Source: Syncephalis plumigaleata | Taxonomy: Eukaryota > Zoopagomycota > Zoopagomycetes > Zoopagales > Piptocephalidaceae | NCBI GenBank assembly: GCA_025201365.1 | Contig: JAIXMF010000001.1 | Span: 2,418,001-2,482,000, forward strand | Direction of reading: 5' to 3' | DNA length: 64,000 bases | Shown here: piece after piece, positions 20,218 to 56,837 of the stretch | Layout of the letters: every line of letters begins with the position of its first letter | Position numbering within the stretch: the first letter of the stretch is position 1 | Position numbers and translations under genes: made by a program | The notes under the pieces: model-generated | The model's input: only the letters and a program-made list of their open reading frames with translations | The model's database searches: none | What the model was told of the DNA's origin: nothing

Positions 20218-23200
20218 TTGCCGGACCCCCCTCTCCTCGCGATCTCTGCACTGCTGAATTGTAACACACATTCCGACCCCTCTACCCACACACATCCCCT
20301 CCTCACCCTGCCATGTACTATCAATGGCGTTCCGGCACGCGCGCTCGTAGACTGCGGTGCCACAAACAACTTCATAGATACACAGCTAGCCCGCCAATTC
20401 CCCTCTCAATTCATGCCTTACAATTCCAACGGTCCTAAAGTTCGGTTAGGAGACGGCTCGGTCCGTCCGGTTACTGGGTTTGCAAAGAATGTCACAGTTA
20501 ATATTAAAGATATTATTTTAAACCTTGATTTTGAAATTATGTCACTGGGACGATACGATGCAATACTAGGTATGCCGTGGCTGGCCAAACACGACCCAGA
20601 TATCGACTGGAAGAATCGTGTGTTACGATGCCTCCGTCGTGGAATATCGGTAGTAGAAACTATACCGTCAGTGTTAGATGTTAAACTGTTGTCACCAAAC
20701 GCGACGTTACCCACACGAGGTTCGAATCAAGCAGCTGGATACGACCTCCACGCCGCCGAGGAAGTAACTATCCTACCCGGCCAATCGAAACTCGTATCCA
20801 CAGGATTAGCAATGAAGCCACCCGAAGGGACATACATACGAATTGCTCCACGCTCTGGCATGGCGGTTAAGCACTCGGTCGACGTGCTAGCAGGCGTAGT
20901 TGATGCAGACTACCGTGGCGAAGTTAAAGGTGTTTTAATGAATCACGGCAGCGACGAGGTACACATCCAGAGAGGCGAACGTTTCGCACAAATCATTTGT
21001 GAGGAGCACAAGTCTCCAACAGTACGTCAGGTAACGGAACTTGACGATACGCAACGCGGCCAAGCCGGATTTGGATCCACCGGCGTTAGGAAGGCACTCG
21101 ACCAACCAACTGCGACGGCAAAAGGAATCGAAAGTGAGACACCCGTGGAACTGCGAACGATCGACGGCGAACCGTTGGACCTAGTGGAAGACACTCCAAT
21201 GTTACTGTTTATAACGGAGTCTACCCCGACGACACCGCGTAAAGCTAAGATGGCCGATGACGTAACGGGCGACATTATAGAAGAATACGCGGACGTGTTT
21301 CCAGACGATCTCCCAGCGGGACTACCACCTCATCGTACCGTTGATTTCGCCATCGACATCATACCAGGATCAACACCACCATCGAAGCCACCTTATCGAC
21401 TATCGCAGGACGAACTGGAGGAATTGAAGAAGCAGTTAGACGACCTACTGAGCAAAGGCTTCATCCAACCGAGCGTCTCACCTTACGGCGCGCCAGTGCT
21501 ATTTGTGAAGAAGAAAGACGGTACTTCACGCATGTGTATCGACTACCGTATGTTGAACGACATAACGATCAAGAACAAATATGCGTTGCCGTACATCGAC
21601 GATCTGTTCCGACAACTACATGGCGCCAGGATATTCAGCAAGATCGACTTACGCTCCGGTTATCACCAAGTTAGGATCAAGGACGAACACGCGGAACGTA
21701 CGGCTTTCCGTACCCGTTACGGCCACTACGAATTCCGCGTCCTACCGTTCGGCCTTACTAACGCGCCGGCAACGTTCATGCGCCTAATGAATGACATACT
21801 GCGGCCGTTGCTCGATAAATGTTGCGTTGTATTCTTGGACGACATACTCATCTATAGTAAATCCGAGGAGGAACACCGTCAACACGTGCGACAGGTGTTG
21901 CAACTGCTGCGCGACAACCAATTATACGCCAAGCACAGCAAATGTACATTTGGCGCGCAACAGGTAGAATTCCTCGGGCATATGGTCAGCGGCGAAGGTA
22001 TTCACATGTGTCACGACAAGCTAGCCGCCATTCGCAACTGGCCACCACTCAGCAACGTACACGACGTTCGCAGTTTCCTAGGCCTGACCGGTTACTACCG
22101 ACACTTCATACGGAACTATTCCAAGATTGCACAACCTCTCACCAACCTCACGAAAACCAATGTGCCATTCAACATGGAAGGAGGACCGACCGCAGCATTC
22201 GAAGAACTGAAACGGAGGATGATGGAAGCGCCAGTATTGATGATACCCGACCCAAAGAAACACTTCATGGTTACGACGGACGCGTCAGACTTCGCGATAG
22301 GTGCCGTATTAGAACAGTCGGACGGAAAGAAGGCACGACCATGCGCGTACCTATCGCGCACGCTTACAACCGCAGAACGTAAGTGGCCAGTGTACGATAA
22401 GGAATTGTACGCCATTATGGAGGCGATCCGTGTCTGGGACGTCTGGCTAAAATGTGTGAAGTTCGACGTATACACGGACCACCAACCACTACGCTACCTT
22501 CGCAAGCAGACAAGTCTACCGAAACGACAGTCGGGTTATTTAGACCTGTTAGCAGACTACGATTTTGACGTCCACTACAAACCCGGACGTAAGAACGTAG
22601 TAGCCGACGCATTGTCACGACAAGCGCCTCACAGGATGGAGCTAGCTAATGTGTCATCAGTGGTACCGGAAGGAGCATTGGTAGAGCGTATTCGAAAAGG
22701 CTATACATCGGATACGTTTTTCAGTACGCTAGCGGGAGTATTGAACGGAGAGGAAACAACAACAACAACCAGAGACCGCAAGTGGAAACGGCAGTTCAGA
22801 CGAGTAGACGAAGATGGATTAATATACGAAATGCGGTCAGCCAATCCACGATTATGTATACCGAAAGTCGGCGACCTACGCGTGCAATTGATCCGCGAAC
22901 ATCACGACGCGCCGACAGCGGGGCACTATGGAGTAGAGCGCACAGTAGCACGATTGAAACGACTGTACTGGTGGCCCACACTCCGCGCGGATGTACAACG
23001 GTACGTGTTATCATGTGATAAGTGCCAACGGAACAAGTCACGTAATCGACACCCAGCAGGCCTACTAAAACCGTTGACAGTACCGGAACAGCGTTGGCAG
23101 GAAGTATCGATGGACCTAATCGTTAAATTACCAGCAACAAAGCGGAATGTAGACGCCATATTTGTTGTAGTCGACCGACTGACAAAACGAGCCCACTTCA

Positions 23201-24237
23201 TGGCTACCAAGACTAGTGCGTCAGCCCGCGACTTAGCTCGATTATTCATCGACAACGTGTTCAAGCTACACGGCATGCCAACGCGTATTGTATCGGATCG
23301 CGACACGCGCTTCATGTCACAATTCTGGAAGTCAATGTTCGACATATTGGGCACGCAATTACGGCCATCATCTGCATATCACCCACAAACGGATGGCCAA
23401 ACGGAACGCACGAACCGCACGTTGGAAACGATGATACGACACTACGTCAACTTCGCACAGGATGATTGGGATGAATGGCTAACCGCATTAGAATTCGCAT
23501 ACAACGACGCGGAACAAGAATCGATTCGCATGTCGCCGTTCTACTGCGACACGGGACGCCACCCACGACGACCGGATGCGCTATCGCGCTCTTTCGACAT
23601 ACGAGGTGCAACAAACGTGGCGGAAACGGAGAATTTCGTAGGCAGAATGCGCGAAATCATCCTAGAAGCGCAAGCTGCAATGGCGGACGCCCAGGCCAAG
23701 CAAAAGTATTACGCCGACCAACATAGACGTGCCGAAGAATTCGAGAAAGACGATCGGGTATGGCTATCAGCAGAGAATATCAATACAGAAGCAAGTAAAG
23801 AACGACCAACACGCAAGTTCAACGCACTTTATTATGGACCGTTCAGAATCACAAAGAAGATCTCGACAGTATCGTACGAACTGGAACTGCCCGGAAACTG
23901 GCGCATTCATAACGTGTTCCACATATCCTTATTGAAGAAGTACGTACCGGAACCGGAAGACATGCAAGGACGAGCGCCAAGTCGACCAGAACCGGAAATT
24001 GTCGATAACGAGGAGGAATACGAAGTAGAAGCAATATTAGAAACACGTGGCACAGGACGAAAACAGCAATTTCTAGTCAAATGGAAAGGGTGGAGTTACG
24101 ACGACGCCACCTGGCAAACGCGAGAAGACTTACGTAATGCGCCCGAAATCCTACGACAATTCGAACAAAGAAGAACAAGACGTAGCAGAAGAGTCGAGGT
24201 CGACTCTTTCAATAGGAGGGAAGGTGCAACGCGGTAG
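20218..24237 (+). CDS. pol of the gypsy element: protease, dUTPase, RT, RNase H, integrase, chromodomain
   Basis: About 1340 codons; the frame opens without an ATG near 20218 and its stop lies inside the 3' LTR. Order: aspartic protease [13 protein letters not shown]; trimeric dUTPase (about residues 155-295) with [30 protein letters not shown] and GQAGFGSTG; reverse transcriptase with FLDDILIYS; RNase H from [15 protein letters not shown]; integrase with the HHCC region and DRDTRF; chromodomain [10 protein letters not shown]...FLVKWKGW. A dUTPase between protease and RT is uncommon in this superfamily. The chromodomain suggests targeting to marked chromatin. Confidence 0.92.
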
Positions 24238-26047: not shown

Positions 26048-26088
26048 GATTAGCTTTTGCGCCTTCGGCGGAACGTCGAGGCGCAAAA

Positions 26089-26746
26089 GAGAGAATAAAT
26101 GTCAAACGAGTTGACGAGCAATAACGGTAAAGAGAGAATAAATGTCAAACGAGTTGACGAGCAATAACGGTAAAGAGAGAATAAATGTCAAACGAGTTGA
26201 CGAGCAATAACGGTAAAGAGAGAATAAATGTCAAACGAGTTGACGAGCAATAACGGTAAAGAGAGAATAAATGTCAAACGAGTTGACGAGCAATAACGGT
26301 AAAGAGAGAATAAATGTCAAACGAGTTGACGAGCAATAACGGTAAAGAGAGAATAAATGTCAAACGAGTTGACGAGCAATAACGGTAAAGAGAGAATAAA
26401 TGTCAAACGAGTTGACGAGCAATAACGGTAAAGAGAGAATAAATGTCAAACGAGTTGACGAGCAATAACGGTAAAGAGAGAATAAATGTCAAACGAGTTG
26501 ACGAGCAATAACGGTAAAGAGAGAATAAATGTCAAACGAGTTGACGAGCAATAACGGTAAAGAGAGAATAAATGTCAAACGAGTTGACGAGCAATAACGG
26601 TAAAGAGAGAATAAATGTCAAACGAGTTGACGAGCAATAACGGTAAAGAGAGAATAAATGTCAAACGAGTTGACGAGCAATAACGGTAAAGAGAGAATAA
26701 ATGTCAAACGAGTTGACGAGCAATAACGGTAAAGAGAGAATAAATC
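26089..26746 (-). repeat. Tandem array of 43-bp monomers forming the LINE 5' leader
   Basis: About 15.3 head-to-tail copies of a 43-bp unit beginning GAGAGAATAAATGTCAAACG on the plus strand; I see no difference between copies. The array lies inside the LINE target duplication (which resumes at 26747) and ends ~40 nt before the ORF1 ATG, so it belongs to the element. Between array and ATG sits an inverted repeat (TTTTGCGCCT / AGGCGCAAAA, about 26055-26089). Confidence 0.92.
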
Positions 26747-36977: not shown

Positions 36978-37152
36978 TTTATTCAATAAATGGTTGATAT
37001 TTATGTAATAGACCGCGAATGATCTTGTAGATATATTTCTTGATCCAAGGAATAATGACTTGAATGACATGGATACTAAATGAGGGACCTGCACCAATCC
37101 ATTCTTGACTTGAATACCTATAATATCTACTTGATGATGTCCTTGTCTTGTT
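36978..37152 (-). other. Terminal (largely 3' UTR) exon of microexon gene A
   Basis: Begins after the acceptor CTACAG at 37153 and runs to AATAAA at 36978-36983 (minus strand). It is nearly collinear with the terminal exon of gene B (55186-55022): most of the first ~140 nt match, including a 3-nt indel, and both end in TTATTGAATAAAT. In the full-length reading the stop lies upstream in the last microexon, so this is 3' UTR. If that microexon were skipped, a ~57-codon frame (NKTRTSSSRYYRYSSQEW...) would open. If all microexons were skipped it would give QDKDIIK and a stop. Confidence 0.6.
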
Positions 37153-37204
37153 CTGTAGTCATAATGGATTAGTATGGGTATGATTATTATGAATTATTAC
37201 TTAC

Positions 37205-38622
37205 TGCTTAAAGCTATCATTCCATTGATGCGAATTTTATCGCAGTTAGTATAACATTTATTGCAGTCAGAATGATGACTTACAAGCTGTTAGACGGAAA
37301 CATACGTGGATCATGAGCCATAATGCGATTAGTACATCCATGCATTGAGGTCAGAAGCATCAACTTACACCCTATCGTATGCAAACATACGTGGATCGTG
37401 TGTTTCATAGTGTGATTAGTACGTCCATTCATTATGATCGGGAATAAAAACTTACAGGCTGACATGCAAGAAGTGCGTGGATAATGAGCCATAGTGTGGT
37501 TAGTACATTCATAGGTTATAGCCAGGTAGTAACTTACAGGCTGGCATACAGGAGTATACGTGGATCGTGTGCCATACTGTATTTAGTACCTCACTCATTC
37601 CAGCTAGAATGATAACTTACGGTCTATCGTACAAAACATACAAGGATCATATGCCATAGCGTGATTAGTATACCATAGTTATAACCGGGATGGCCATTTA
37701 CCATCTATCATACACAAGCATACGTATGGGCCATACGTCGTATTATAGTTAGCATATCACTCATTGCAGCCAGGTGGTAACTTACTTGCTATCGTCCAGG
37801 AGCATACGTGGATGATGTGCCAGATCATGGTTAGTACCTCATAGGTTACGATCAGAATAATTACTTACAACCTATCATACAGGAGCGTATGTGGATCATG
37901 AGCCATAGCGTGATTAGTGTGACATTTATTATAATCATAATGGTAACTTACGTCCTATCGTACGAAAACACGTAGTGATTATGGATCATAATGTGATTAG
38001 TACATCCATGCGTTACGGTCAGGATAGTAACTTACACCCTATCATACGTAAATGAATGCGAATCGTGTGTCATAGGGTGATTAGTACACGTATAGATTGC
38101 AATCAGAATGGTAACTCACACCCTAGCATACGGGAGCGTATGTAAATAATGAGCCATAGTGTAATTAGTGTGGCATCAATTACGGCCAGAATGATAACTT
38201 ACAAGCTGATATACAGGAACATATGTGGATCATGTGCCACAATGAAGTTAGTACCACGTTCATTGCAGCTAGAATGGTAACTTACAGCCTGTAATAAAAA
38301 ATATACGTGGATTTTGTGCCGTAGCGTGATTAGCCTATCCATGCATTAAAAGTAGATGATAACTTACACCCTACAATAAGAAACATACGTGAATCGTGTG
38401 CCACGTTATAATTAGCAGATCATAACGACAATAACAACGTTAACTTACAAGTACTTGTAAGTGACATCACACATGATTTTGGTTTACACTACGATTAGTA
38501 TAGTACTTGCTATGGTCAATAGGATAACTTACAAGGTTGTGCTAACAATTTGATAGGTAGGATAAACATTATGATGTGATTAGCGTATCAAAACAACCAT
38601 TTGGTACACATGAACTTACGTT
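37205..38622 (-). repeat. Tandem intron-microexon cassettes of gene A (period ~83 bp)
   Basis: Microexons (minus strand): 38622-38620 AAC; 38541-38533 CACAACCTT; 38453-38449 TACTT; 38370-38368 GGT; 38288-38286 GCT; 38205-38203 CTT; 38122-38120 GGT; 38038-38036 GGT; 37954-37952 GAC; 37871-37869 GTT; 37788-37786 CAA; 37704-37702 ATG; 37623-37621 ACC; 37540-37538 CCT; 37458-37456 CCT; 37371-37369 GGT; 37286-37284 CTT; 37213-37205 CTTTAAGCA. Spacing is 79-87 bp. Intron bodies are related and share a core near CATGATCCACGTATG between the branch site and the acceptor, as expected from tandem duplication of one cassette. Confidence 0.8.
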
Positions 38623-38795
38623 CTATCGGTAATCATCGATGGACAATGAAACAATAGGCTACGATTAGTACATCAATTGATAGGGTCATGGCCAGACATA
38701 CCACGACGAATCAATGTGGGCTTGGCCTCAACGGTGACCAGACTGGCGAGAGCGACAATGGCGACGGCAATAGCGATAACGGCAGAGAACTTCAT
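37208..38795 (-). CDS. Microexon peptide gene A: signal peptide, RR site, 21-residue peptide from 18 microexons
   Basis: Exon 1 (38795-38702) codes MKFSAVIAIAVAIVALASLV..., a signal peptide, then KPTLIRR and one extra G before a GTATGT donor (phase 1). Eighteen exons of 3-9 nt follow. In order they add AAC, CACAACCTT, TACTT, then fourteen single codons, then CTT TAA GCA. The 5-nt exon brings the frame to phase 0, so each later microexon is exactly one codon. Predicted mature peptide after the RR kexin site: EPQPLLGALG followed by GDVQMTPPGLL, then TAA at 37210-37208; 52 residues in all. Every intron has CTAAY 30-45 nt before its AG, and a GTAAGT-like donor. The peptide's role is unknown: pheromone, effector or toxin-like are all possible. 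No transcript evidence is available here. Confidence 0.7.
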
Positions 38796-55021: not shown

Positions 55022-55186
55022 ACATATTTATTCAATAACTGATTGAATGATGATCTTGTAGATATATTTCTTGGTCCAAGGAATAATGACTTGAATGACA
55101 TGGACACTAAATGAGGATCTTGCACCAATACATTCTTGACTTGAATACCTATATCTATATCTACTTGATGATGCCCTTGGCTTGTC
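55022..55186 (-). other. Terminal (largely 3' UTR) exon of microexon gene B
   Basis: Starts after the acceptor GATTACAG; homologous over ~140 nt to the terminal exon of gene A and ends at the same TTATTGAATAAAT poly(A) signal. The full-length reading stops before it. Splicing exon 1 straight to it would give GQAKGIIK and a stop. Confidence 0.6.
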
Positions 55187-55240: not shown

Positions 55241-56529
55241 ATTTACCACTTTATGTTGCCATTATACGCAAAATGAGCGATACCGCGGTTAACGCATTAT
55301 TCGCTGTTGTGATCATGCTAACTTACGTGCTATTACGGGTACACACAATCGTAAATAAACGATGAATTCCGTTGACGTTAGCATGGTCTACATTGCAATT
55401 GGCATACCAACTTACCCACTAGCATTTATATAATCGCGCACACATCGCATGCCATATTGTATAATTAGTGCATTACGTGGGATAGTCGAAAGTTTAGCTT
55501 ACAAACTATGGCATGCGGCCATGTACGCGATAGGTGCCACATTTGTAATTAGCATAATGTACAAACTGTCATTGGAATGCGCACTTACATTCTGTTATCA
55601 ATGAGCATGCGTGAATCGTATACCGTATTGCAATGAGTATGTGGAAATAGTATAATCAAAGTGATAACTTACTTTCTATGATACGTCATCATCGATGAAT
55701 CGTCAATTATATTAGAATTAGCCTATTGTGGATTACAAACAAAAGAAATGACTTACCGGCTACCACATATGTGATTATTGATGGATTATGTATCACGTTG
55801 CAATATTAGCACATCATTGGGTATAGCACGTATGCCAACTTACATTTCGCTATACATAAGCACACACACACACACACATACACACGAAACGTATGTCACA
55901 ACATGGTTAGTGTATCGTAGCGTGTAATCCTAATAATAACTTACGGTCTATTATAGATAATTATACACGAGTTGTATGCCAATGTTACGGTCAGTACATT
56001 GAGTATTGCCAATAGAATGCCAGCTTACCTTTTTCTATAAAATTACGTTCGAGTTATTTGTCGCATTCTTGATTGTTAGCGTAGTATAGATTGAAGCAGA
56101 ACTAGCAACTTACAAGCTGATATGCGTGATATCATTACATAAATTGAGAATCACAGCACAGTAAGTTTCTCTTAGGCCATATTAGCTGGAATACTAACTT
56201 ACATTCTAGCATGCAGAATTACACGATCATTGTGTTATTTCCCGATCTGATTAGCAACGCATCATACACGATAATCCGGGTGTTGACTTACCTCCTATTA
56301 CGTATAATTAAGTATACGTGTAGTATTCCTCTATCGTTAGCGTATGCTCTCTTTATATTCCCGCAAGTCTATCTACTCACTGGTACTTCTAAATGTATTA
56401 CACAACGGTTAGTGTACTTGGGTGTATAGACATTGCATTGACCTACCATCTATCCATGGAGCAAACACAAAAAAATGTTACATAACGGTTAGTATGCTTA
56501 ATATTCCTATAGAATGGCAGACTTGCCAG
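55241..56529 (-). repeat. Tandem intron-microexon cassettes of gene B (period ~86 bp)
   Basis: Microexons (minus strand): 56529-56527 CTG (GC donor); 56449-56447 ATG; 56388-56381 AAGTACCA; 56294-56292 GAG; 56205-56203 AAT; 56116-56114 CTT; 56034-56029 AAAAAG; 55947-55945 ACC; 55849-55844 CGAAAT; 55759-55757 CCG; 55675-55673 AAA; 55591-55589 AAT; 55505-55503 TTT; 55418-55416 TGG; 55329-55327 CAC; 55248-55241 TGGTAAAT. Spacing is 66-101 bp, mostly 84-89. Nearly every intron has a CTAAY- or CTNAY-type branch site. Intron bodies are more diverged than in gene A, with a CA repeat in one. Confidence 0.75.
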
Positions 56530-56837
56530 CTAATACATAGCTATTAATCAGTTAAAACAATCCAGTTTTATTATTGTGACATACCACGGCGTTCTAGTGA
56601 GCGGAAAGCAGCAGGCGGAACATGATCACGACGCTCTAATGATCGAAAAGCAGCAGGAGGGACGTGGTCACGGCGACTTAATGGACTCAAGGCAGGAGGT
56701 AAAATATAATCTCGGCGTTCTAATGATCTGAAGGCGGCAGGCGGAACATGATCACGGCGATTTAATAGAGGAGTAGCATCGGCTATAGTCAAACCAGCTA
56801 CCATGGCGATGGCGGTAATAACGACAGAAAACTTCAT
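55243..56837 (-). CDS. Microexon peptide gene B: signal peptide, RR-separated repeats, 20-residue peptide from 16 microexons
   Basis: Exon 1 (56837-56585) codes a signal peptide (MKFSVVITAIAMVAGLT), NRR, then four 14-residue units ending in RR: DHVPPAAFRSLERR three times and DYILPPALSPLSRR once. Then one G before a GTATGT donor. Sixteen microexons follow (3, 3, 8, 3, 3, 3, 6, 3, 6, then six of 3, and 8 nt). The first 8-nt exon sets phase 0; the last, TGGTAAAT, holds the TAA (55245-55243). Predicted final peptide: ADEVPENLKK then TRNPKNFWHW; 104 residues in all. Kexin at the RR sites would also free up to four 12-residue peptides. The layout recalls fungal pheromone or Kex2-processed repeat precursors. 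Paralogue of gene A by signal exon, scaffold and 3' exon. Confidence 0.7.

Follow-up and report, generated by a model that had tools for sequence, protein, structure and literature searches.

Architecture of the Locus

The window, a 64-kb stretch of the Syncephalis plumigaleata genome, carries two genes, A and B, in which most of the internal exons are 3 nt long (Table 1). Exon 1 of gene A encodes MKFSAVIAIAVAIVALASLVTVEAKPTLIRR plus one base, which is read as a predicted signal peptide followed by KPTLIRR. Its microexons measure, in order, 3, 9, 5, 14 times 3, and 9 nt. Joined, they give a predicted product consisting of the signal peptide, the RR site, EPQPLLGALGGDVQMTPPGLL and TAA, with the stop inside the last microexon and no Cys in the predicted mature portion. 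The terminal exon contains AATAAA at 36983 and begins similarly to the terminal exons of paralogues. TRF scores part of the gene as a tandem repeat.

Re-reading of the letters places exon 1 and the start of the terminal exon where the first-pass annotation had put them, and its count of 18 microexons, 15 of them 3 nt long, was re-derived with the same result. The 5-nt exon turns phase 1 into phase 0 and the stop falls where it had been proposed to fall. The donors are GTAAGT-like as described (16 GTAAGT and one each of GTATGT, GTGAGT and GTAAAT), and a CTAAY branch site, claimed for every unit, is present in 18 of the 19 introns, the remaining one having CTAAA. Two figures needed correction: the microexons total 68 nt and not 64, and the spacing, given as 79-87 bp throughout, is 81-88 bp from acceptor to acceptor up to microexon 17 and then 73 and 61 bp. 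The argument that such an array is unlikely to arise by chance holds up. In the gene A region, exons of 12 nt or less can be chained up to 13 long, and 500 dinucleotide shuffles of that region never give a chain longer than 1. Once both genes are masked, the longest chain on either strand of the window is 1; shuffling the entire window 20 times gives no chain above 2.

Table 1. Coordinates of gene A, gene B and the 77-exon gene (window positions unless a contig is named)
Feature	Position	Strand	Description
Gene A exon 1	38702..38795	minus	94 nt; ends CGTCGTG, phase 1
Gene A microexon 1	38620..38622	minus	AAC, 3 nt
Gene A microexon 2	38533..38541	minus	CACAACCTT, 9 nt
Gene A microexon 3	38449..38453	minus	TACTT, 5 nt; phase shifter, 1 to 0
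Gene A microexon 4	38368..38370	minus	GGT
Gene A microexon 5	38286..38288	minus	GCT
Gene A microexon 6	38203..38205	minus	CTT
Gene A microexon 7	38120..38122	minus	GGT
Gene A microexon 8	38036..38038	minus	GGT
Gene A microexon 9	37952..37954	minus	GAC
Gene A microexon 10	37869..37871	minus	GTT
Gene A microexon 11	37786..37788	minus	CAA
Gene A microexon 12	37702..37704	minus	ATG
Gene A microexon 13	37621..37623	minus	ACC
Gene A microexon 14	37538..37540	minus	CCT
Gene A microexon 15	37456..37458	minus	CCT
Gene A microexon 16	37369..37371	minus	GGT
Gene A microexon 17	37284..37286	minus	CTT
Gene A microexon 18	37205..37213	minus	CTTTAAGCA, 9 nt: final codon, TAA, 3 nt
Gene A terminal exon, non-coding	36978..37152	minus	Starts AACAAGACAAGGACATCATCAAG; 3' end as placed by the first-pass annotation
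Gene B exon 1	56585..56837	minus	Predicted signal peptide, then four repeats of 14 aa with RR between them; donor set by eye
Gene B microexon array	55241..56529	minus	16 microexons, 12 of 3 nt; product ends RRADEVPENLKKTRNPKNFWHW, then stop
Gene B terminal exon, start	55165..55186	minus	GACAAGCCAAGGGCATCATCAA; gene A terminal-exon family
77-exon gene	G000:C1:1417653 down to ~1411320	minus	Loci L011-L016 and L077; 63 three-nt exons

In gene B, four 14-aa repeats ending in RR follow a signal-like N-terminus within exon 1, as in KEX2-processed repeat proteins. Its phase shifter is an 8-nt exon, AAGTACCA, and its last microexon, TGGTAAAT, carries the stop. The model was scored as partial because the terminal motif of the parser described below missed the terminal exon. 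A GC-AG intron (CTG/GCAAGT) is the second leader intron at the same place in L023, L038 and L039, and likewise in gene B. Elsewhere in the window, positions 20218-24237 of the plus strand encode a polyprotein of the Ty3 type, whose dUTPase domain sits between the protease and the reverse transcriptase and whose C-terminus is a chromodomain, and positions 26086-26745 hold 15.3 copies of a 43-bp tandem repeat that are 100% identical.

A Genome-wide Family

Gene A is one member of a large S. plumigaleata family of predicted secreted-peptide genes. The pattern CTAAT..AG-NNN-GTAAGT..CTAAT has 446+487 = 933 matches in the genome versus 4+10 in the reversed control, and a looser pattern for 3-nt exons has 847+909 = 1756 versus 8+6 = 14; a few overlapping matches are counted twice in these figures. 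A 4-nt version of the pattern occurs at chance level genome-wide (16 versus 25 in the control). A 0-nt version, with AG directly before the donor, is likewise at chance (50 versus 53), and zero-length recursive exons were rejected on this count. Among the 933 matched triplets there is no TAA or TAG and, genome-wide, a single TGA; triplets of the form T[AGT][CGT] number 126.

The first exon tells the same story of a family. Its peptide has at least 150 relatives in the same genome (the best 150 of 175 candidates), and a signal-like N-terminus is conserved among the 150 listed. For the donor string of exon 1, CGTCGTGGTATGTC, there are 90 occurrences genome-wide and 0 in the control.

Gene Models Built without Regard to Frame

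The family was modeled from 57 sources, consisting of the window and 56 further stretches of its own genome. A dynamic-programming parser takes donor, branch, acceptor and spacing into account, together with a terminal-exon motif, and ignores frame and stops. The sources yielded 34 models with at least 10 exons, 17 intronless copies, 4 short stretches with fewer than 10 exons (L041, L046, L048 and L057) and 2 without a model (L065 and L072). A model is termed closed when its first in-frame stop lies in an exon ending TAAGCA, TAAGCG or TAAACA, and 24 of the 34 models with at least 10 exons are closed; they are partly dependent because gene A and L021 are near copies. The parser recognized the terminal exon in 21 of these 24 and missed it in L024, L039 and L073. 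An earlier greedy parser, which missed GTAGGT and GC donors and broke off early in many loci, was replaced. The acceptor preference of the present one was retuned once, after two exons of a 77-exon gene were seen misplaced; 21 of the 24 closed models were closed before retuning, and L024, L025 and L061 only afterwards.

The closed models bear a clear coding signature. Not one of their 657 three-nt exons is a stop triplet, against 17.9 expected from base composition. Exactly one frame-shifting exon, of 5 or 2 nt, occurs in each of the 24, and after it the internal exons are multiples of 3 in all of them. The 717 internal microexons comprise 5 of 2 nt, 657 of 3 nt, 19 of 5 nt, 11 of 6 nt, 21 of 9 nt, 2 of 12 nt and 2 of 24 nt. 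Most of the three-nt exons are in phase 0 (604, with 53 in phase 1). The largest model, L024 (G000:C318:1457660-1465000), has 83 exons, 78 of them 3 nt long.

The introns are short and alike. In the closed models they range from 49 to 101 nt with a median of 80 (n = 764), and a typical one opens with a donor resembling GTAAGT and closes with an AG that lies about 46 nt downstream of a CTAAY branch site. GCAAGT donors account for 10 of the 764. AG occurs between branch and acceptor at only 2 of 20554 dinucleotides, a figure to which the parser contributes by penalizing AG in that zone. Mean intron identity within a gene is 0.64-0.83 (23 genes).

Ten of the 34 models are unclosed, perhaps through decay or parsing errors. 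No stop is reached in L064 and L068, the L064 chain reaching near the end of its locus and the L068 chain ending early. In L022, L030, L031, L062 and L067 an exon is apparently merged or missed. A surplus 2-nt exon is present in L033, L035 and L066, accompanied in L033 and L035 by a TGA exon. The latter two are short arrays of 12 exons, perhaps decayed copies.

Intronless Relatives

Seventeen relatives in the same genome lack the introns, and several of them display predicted junctions already joined. For example, L049 and L050, which are near copies of each other, share with the predicted spliced form of L023 an identical stretch of 36 nt across seven predicted junctions, CGTCGTG/CTG/TTG/TCGAAC/GCC/GTG/CTC/CAAATCCT; this match covers conserved leader exons, outside the variable array. 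The joined-junction string is present at 8 genomic sites. Twelve of the 17 intronless copies match a model exactly across one predicted junction or more, including L052 and L053, where the sole match is a chance-like 12-mer, and 5 of the 17 have none with any model. In the reversed controls 0 junctions are spanned in all 17.

A longer comparison comes from the 77-exon gene, whose exon 1 and first donor were set by eye and the remainder by the parser. Its product aligns with a contiguous open reading frame, C318:1455923-1456237, at E 1.6e-20 (67.4 bits, 42% identity over 111 columns), in one comparison run with no low-complexity filter or composition correction. This reading frame is the N-terminal part of the public protein P0008. 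Shuffling the exon order of the 77-exon gene gives at most 37.4 bits in 200 trials versus 67.4 for the real order. Before retuning, the product had internal stops at the two misplaced exons; afterwards there are none before the terminal part, and one exon near the end of the model (AATAAAGG) breaks the frame. The gene has no obvious signal peptide.

A LINE-type reverse transcriptase is encoded within the window, so retrocopying is a plausible source of the intronless relatives. In a tree of 44 rows, 16 of them intronless (L059 was left out as it has no terminal exon), the intronless copies do not form one clade and 8 changes are counted (AU p 0.008), with most forks weak and the firmly supported branches forcing only 2 changes.

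Unit Gain, Unit Loss and Codon Divergence

Whole units of codon plus intron have been lost and duplicated. Between L074 and L075, a block of 12 units (12 codons) has been cleanly lost, and the introns flanking the gap are 95-100% identical. L075 itself carries a 4-unit block at units 12 and 23, near both ends of the 12-unit stretch, with 95% intron identity. Similarly, L024 contains a 7-unit block twice (DIASDFE and DIASDFA, introns 98% identical) and a 3-unit block twice (GLA, introns 100% identical). L027 and L040 are set apart by a single unit.

Nine pairs of paralogues were aligned, and eight of these were tested for codon versus intron divergence. In 6 of the 8, codons have changed faster than introns (p 4e-9 to 1e-3), although the pairs are not independent because members recur across them. 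For example, L028 and L029 differ at 22% of codon sites versus 7% of intron sites (p 5e-7), and their codon changes include 12 that alter the amino acid and 2 that are silent. L061 and L068 show the reverse, with introns diverging more than codons (p 0.03), and gene A and L021 have no codon change among the sites compared. The ninth pair, L027 and L066, stands outside the eight tested and differs by 57% in codons versus 18% in introns.

Public Gene Models and Predicted Products

Two public gene models, P0005 and P0006, which presumably rest on transcripts, contain joined runs of one-codon exons. P0005 comes from another locus than L064 and matches the L064 model at 67 of 80 positions, exon 1 included, with 8 L064 codons absent. 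P0006 lies on the contig of L073 and has QEWNEF joined; ahead of this run it lacks 7 codons that the L073 model has, and after it P0006 continues into sequence that the L073 model calls intron.

Many predicted products have a C..CC..C pattern after RR, such as CKPDETFYDGYGGGHCCKQDGNDIVCRYQ in L040, and others are Gly/Ala-rich, such as that of the 83-exon L024, or free of Cys, as in gene A. In a Pfam scan of 8 products no family rose above its cut-off; one of them scored 17.7 bits against the conotoxin family (PF02950), below the cut-off of 25.1.

A Model for Splicing and Diversification

The first-pass proposal of a secreted peptide built from one-codon exons is backed by the closure of models parsed without regard to frame, the rarity of stop triplets, the intronless relatives and the public models. 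As far as the sequence can tell, members of the gene A family very probably encode predicted secreted peptides that are spelled by serial one-codon exons, spliced intron by intron and diversified by intron recombination. Exon 1 would supply a signal peptide followed by a short pro-region with RR at its end; we take this RR to resemble a Kex2-type site, and it may be cleaved. Single-codon exons of 3 nt, set between similar introns of about 80 nt, would then spell most of the mature peptide. One exon of 5 or 2 nt would bring the frame to 0, and the stop would lie just upstream of the shared non-coding terminal exon.

Splicing would proceed one intron after another. Each joining would leave the growing exon ending in NNN/GTAAGT, and therefore the next donor would stand ready 3 nt past the last junction. 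Introns that are short and uniform, with sites that are mostly strong, point to such an intron-by-intron order, and exon definition on 3 nt is hard to imagine. Recombination between similar introns can add, remove or swap codons in frame because each unit is a codon plus an intron, and this frame-safe exchange would let the peptides diversify quickly. A fuller version of the idea has about an even chance of being right: each residue of the mature peptide would be its own codon-plus-intron cassette, recombination between look-alike introns would shuffle codons or blocks in frame, and optional splicing could add variants. S. plumigaleata is a mycoparasite, and the peptides may act against or on its fungal host.

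Two alternatives start from the similarity of the introns. In one, the array is a decayed 80-bp satellite with splice-like motifs by chance and no serial splicing, an origin to which the likeness of introns within genes (mean identity 0.64-0.83 in 23 genes) and the TRF repeat in gene A would lend themselves. It is extremely improbable, and mere satellite DNA was rejected, in view of the near-absence of stop triplets, the closure in one frame, the joined junctions in intronless relatives and the public models with codons joined. The other reverses the direction of change, making the intronless genes ancestral and inserting introner-like elements at each codon boundary; the coexistence of intronless and intron-bearing forms is then explained along with the likeness of the introns. 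However, dozens of phase 0 insertions would be needed, one every 3 nt, and multi-unit block duplications are directly seen. The scatter of intronless copies over more than one clade fits repeated retrocopying, with only 2 changes forced by firm branches, and we regard introner insertion as unlikely.

Two further possibilities concern how fully the microexons are used. The splice sites could be real and most transcripts could still skip many or all microexons, leaving the full peptide as a minor product. A 3-nt exon is difficult to define, P0006 is without 7 L073-model codons before QEWNEF, and P0005 is without several L064-model codons, though at a different locus. On the other hand, long series are joined in the intronless relatives, and the absent stops, like the C..CC..C patterns that recur, suggest that the included codons are under selection, which makes majority skipping very unlikely. 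Skipping might instead be the main purpose, with any subset of one-codon exons left out in frame to give many peptides per gene. It would preserve the frame because the internal exons past the shifter are whole codons (in each of the 24 closed models their lengths are divisible by 3), and both P0005 and P0006 are short of codons relative to the models. Combinatorial splicing as the main purpose is nevertheless doubtful, a minor possibility, as the mostly strong and uniform splice sites suggest constitutive use and skipping would break the C..CC..C patterns.

If the fuller cassette version is true, introns serve as spacers for codon-level protein shuffling and the parasite gains a fast-evolving peptide arsenal. 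The arrays would offer a concrete route for introns to speed protein evolution at codon resolution. They are also a direct test bed for the recognition of very short exons, because the spliceosome has little room for exon definition. Exon size is here pushed to one codon, with dozens in series (up to 78 three-nt exons in the 83-exon model).

Relation to Known Systems

Several known systems share single elements of this architecture. Recursive splicing, in which exons have zero length, recreates a donor at the last junction or right beside it. A donor would be regenerated in the S. plumigaleata arrays as well, whereas each step there would leave one codon. KEX2-processed repeat proteins occur in fungi; unlike these, gene B runs on into a microexon array and gene A has a single RR.

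The micro-exon genes (MEGs) of Schistosoma mansoni encode secreted variable proteins with an N-terminal signal peptide and have many short exons, mostly multiples of three (PMC10526429). There are 35 of these genes with 10-20 exons each, introns of 0.1-5 kb, and exons mostly of 15 bp, with a range of 6-81 in the text and 3-81 in the abstract (PMC10526429). The likeness is one of architecture: in both cases very short exons come in series, and the 24 closed S. plumigaleata models have 657 three-nt exons among their 717 internal microexons, with one non-multiple of three per gene. Unlike those described for MEGs, the S. plumigaleata internal exons are mostly exactly 3 nt, reach 78 per gene and alternate with introns of about 80 nt.

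Aphid bicycle genes are rapidly evolving putative effectors with many small internal exons of one phase (PMC9168663). They average about 17 exons, in phase 2, and one megacycle gene has more than 100 microexons (PMC9168663). In contrast, S. plumigaleata exons are single codons, mostly in phase 0 (604 of 657), and occur in a fungal parasite of fungi. Drosophila homothorax has one 3-bp exon, alternatively spliced (PMC7392893). That exon is also one codon long, and differs in being single in one gene, where S. plumigaleata has serial arrays.

The first-pass annotation held serial one-codon exons in a fungus to be undescribed, and no description was found in the searched portions of the open-licence literature. 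The one-codon exon arrays are apparently a new, extreme and convergent variant of the micro-exon kind of gene. Similar secreted families may hide in other parasites because standard annotation misses such genes. All public-protein matches that carry an organism label are from S. plumigaleata, among them BDF22DRAFT_739549, which begins like the intronless copy L037; two matches carry no such label. P0014 (50 aa, from a 1753-bp contig, jgi) is a diverged exon-1 relative containing DAAPVLDRRGTSGYGYIN, perhaps from another strain or species.
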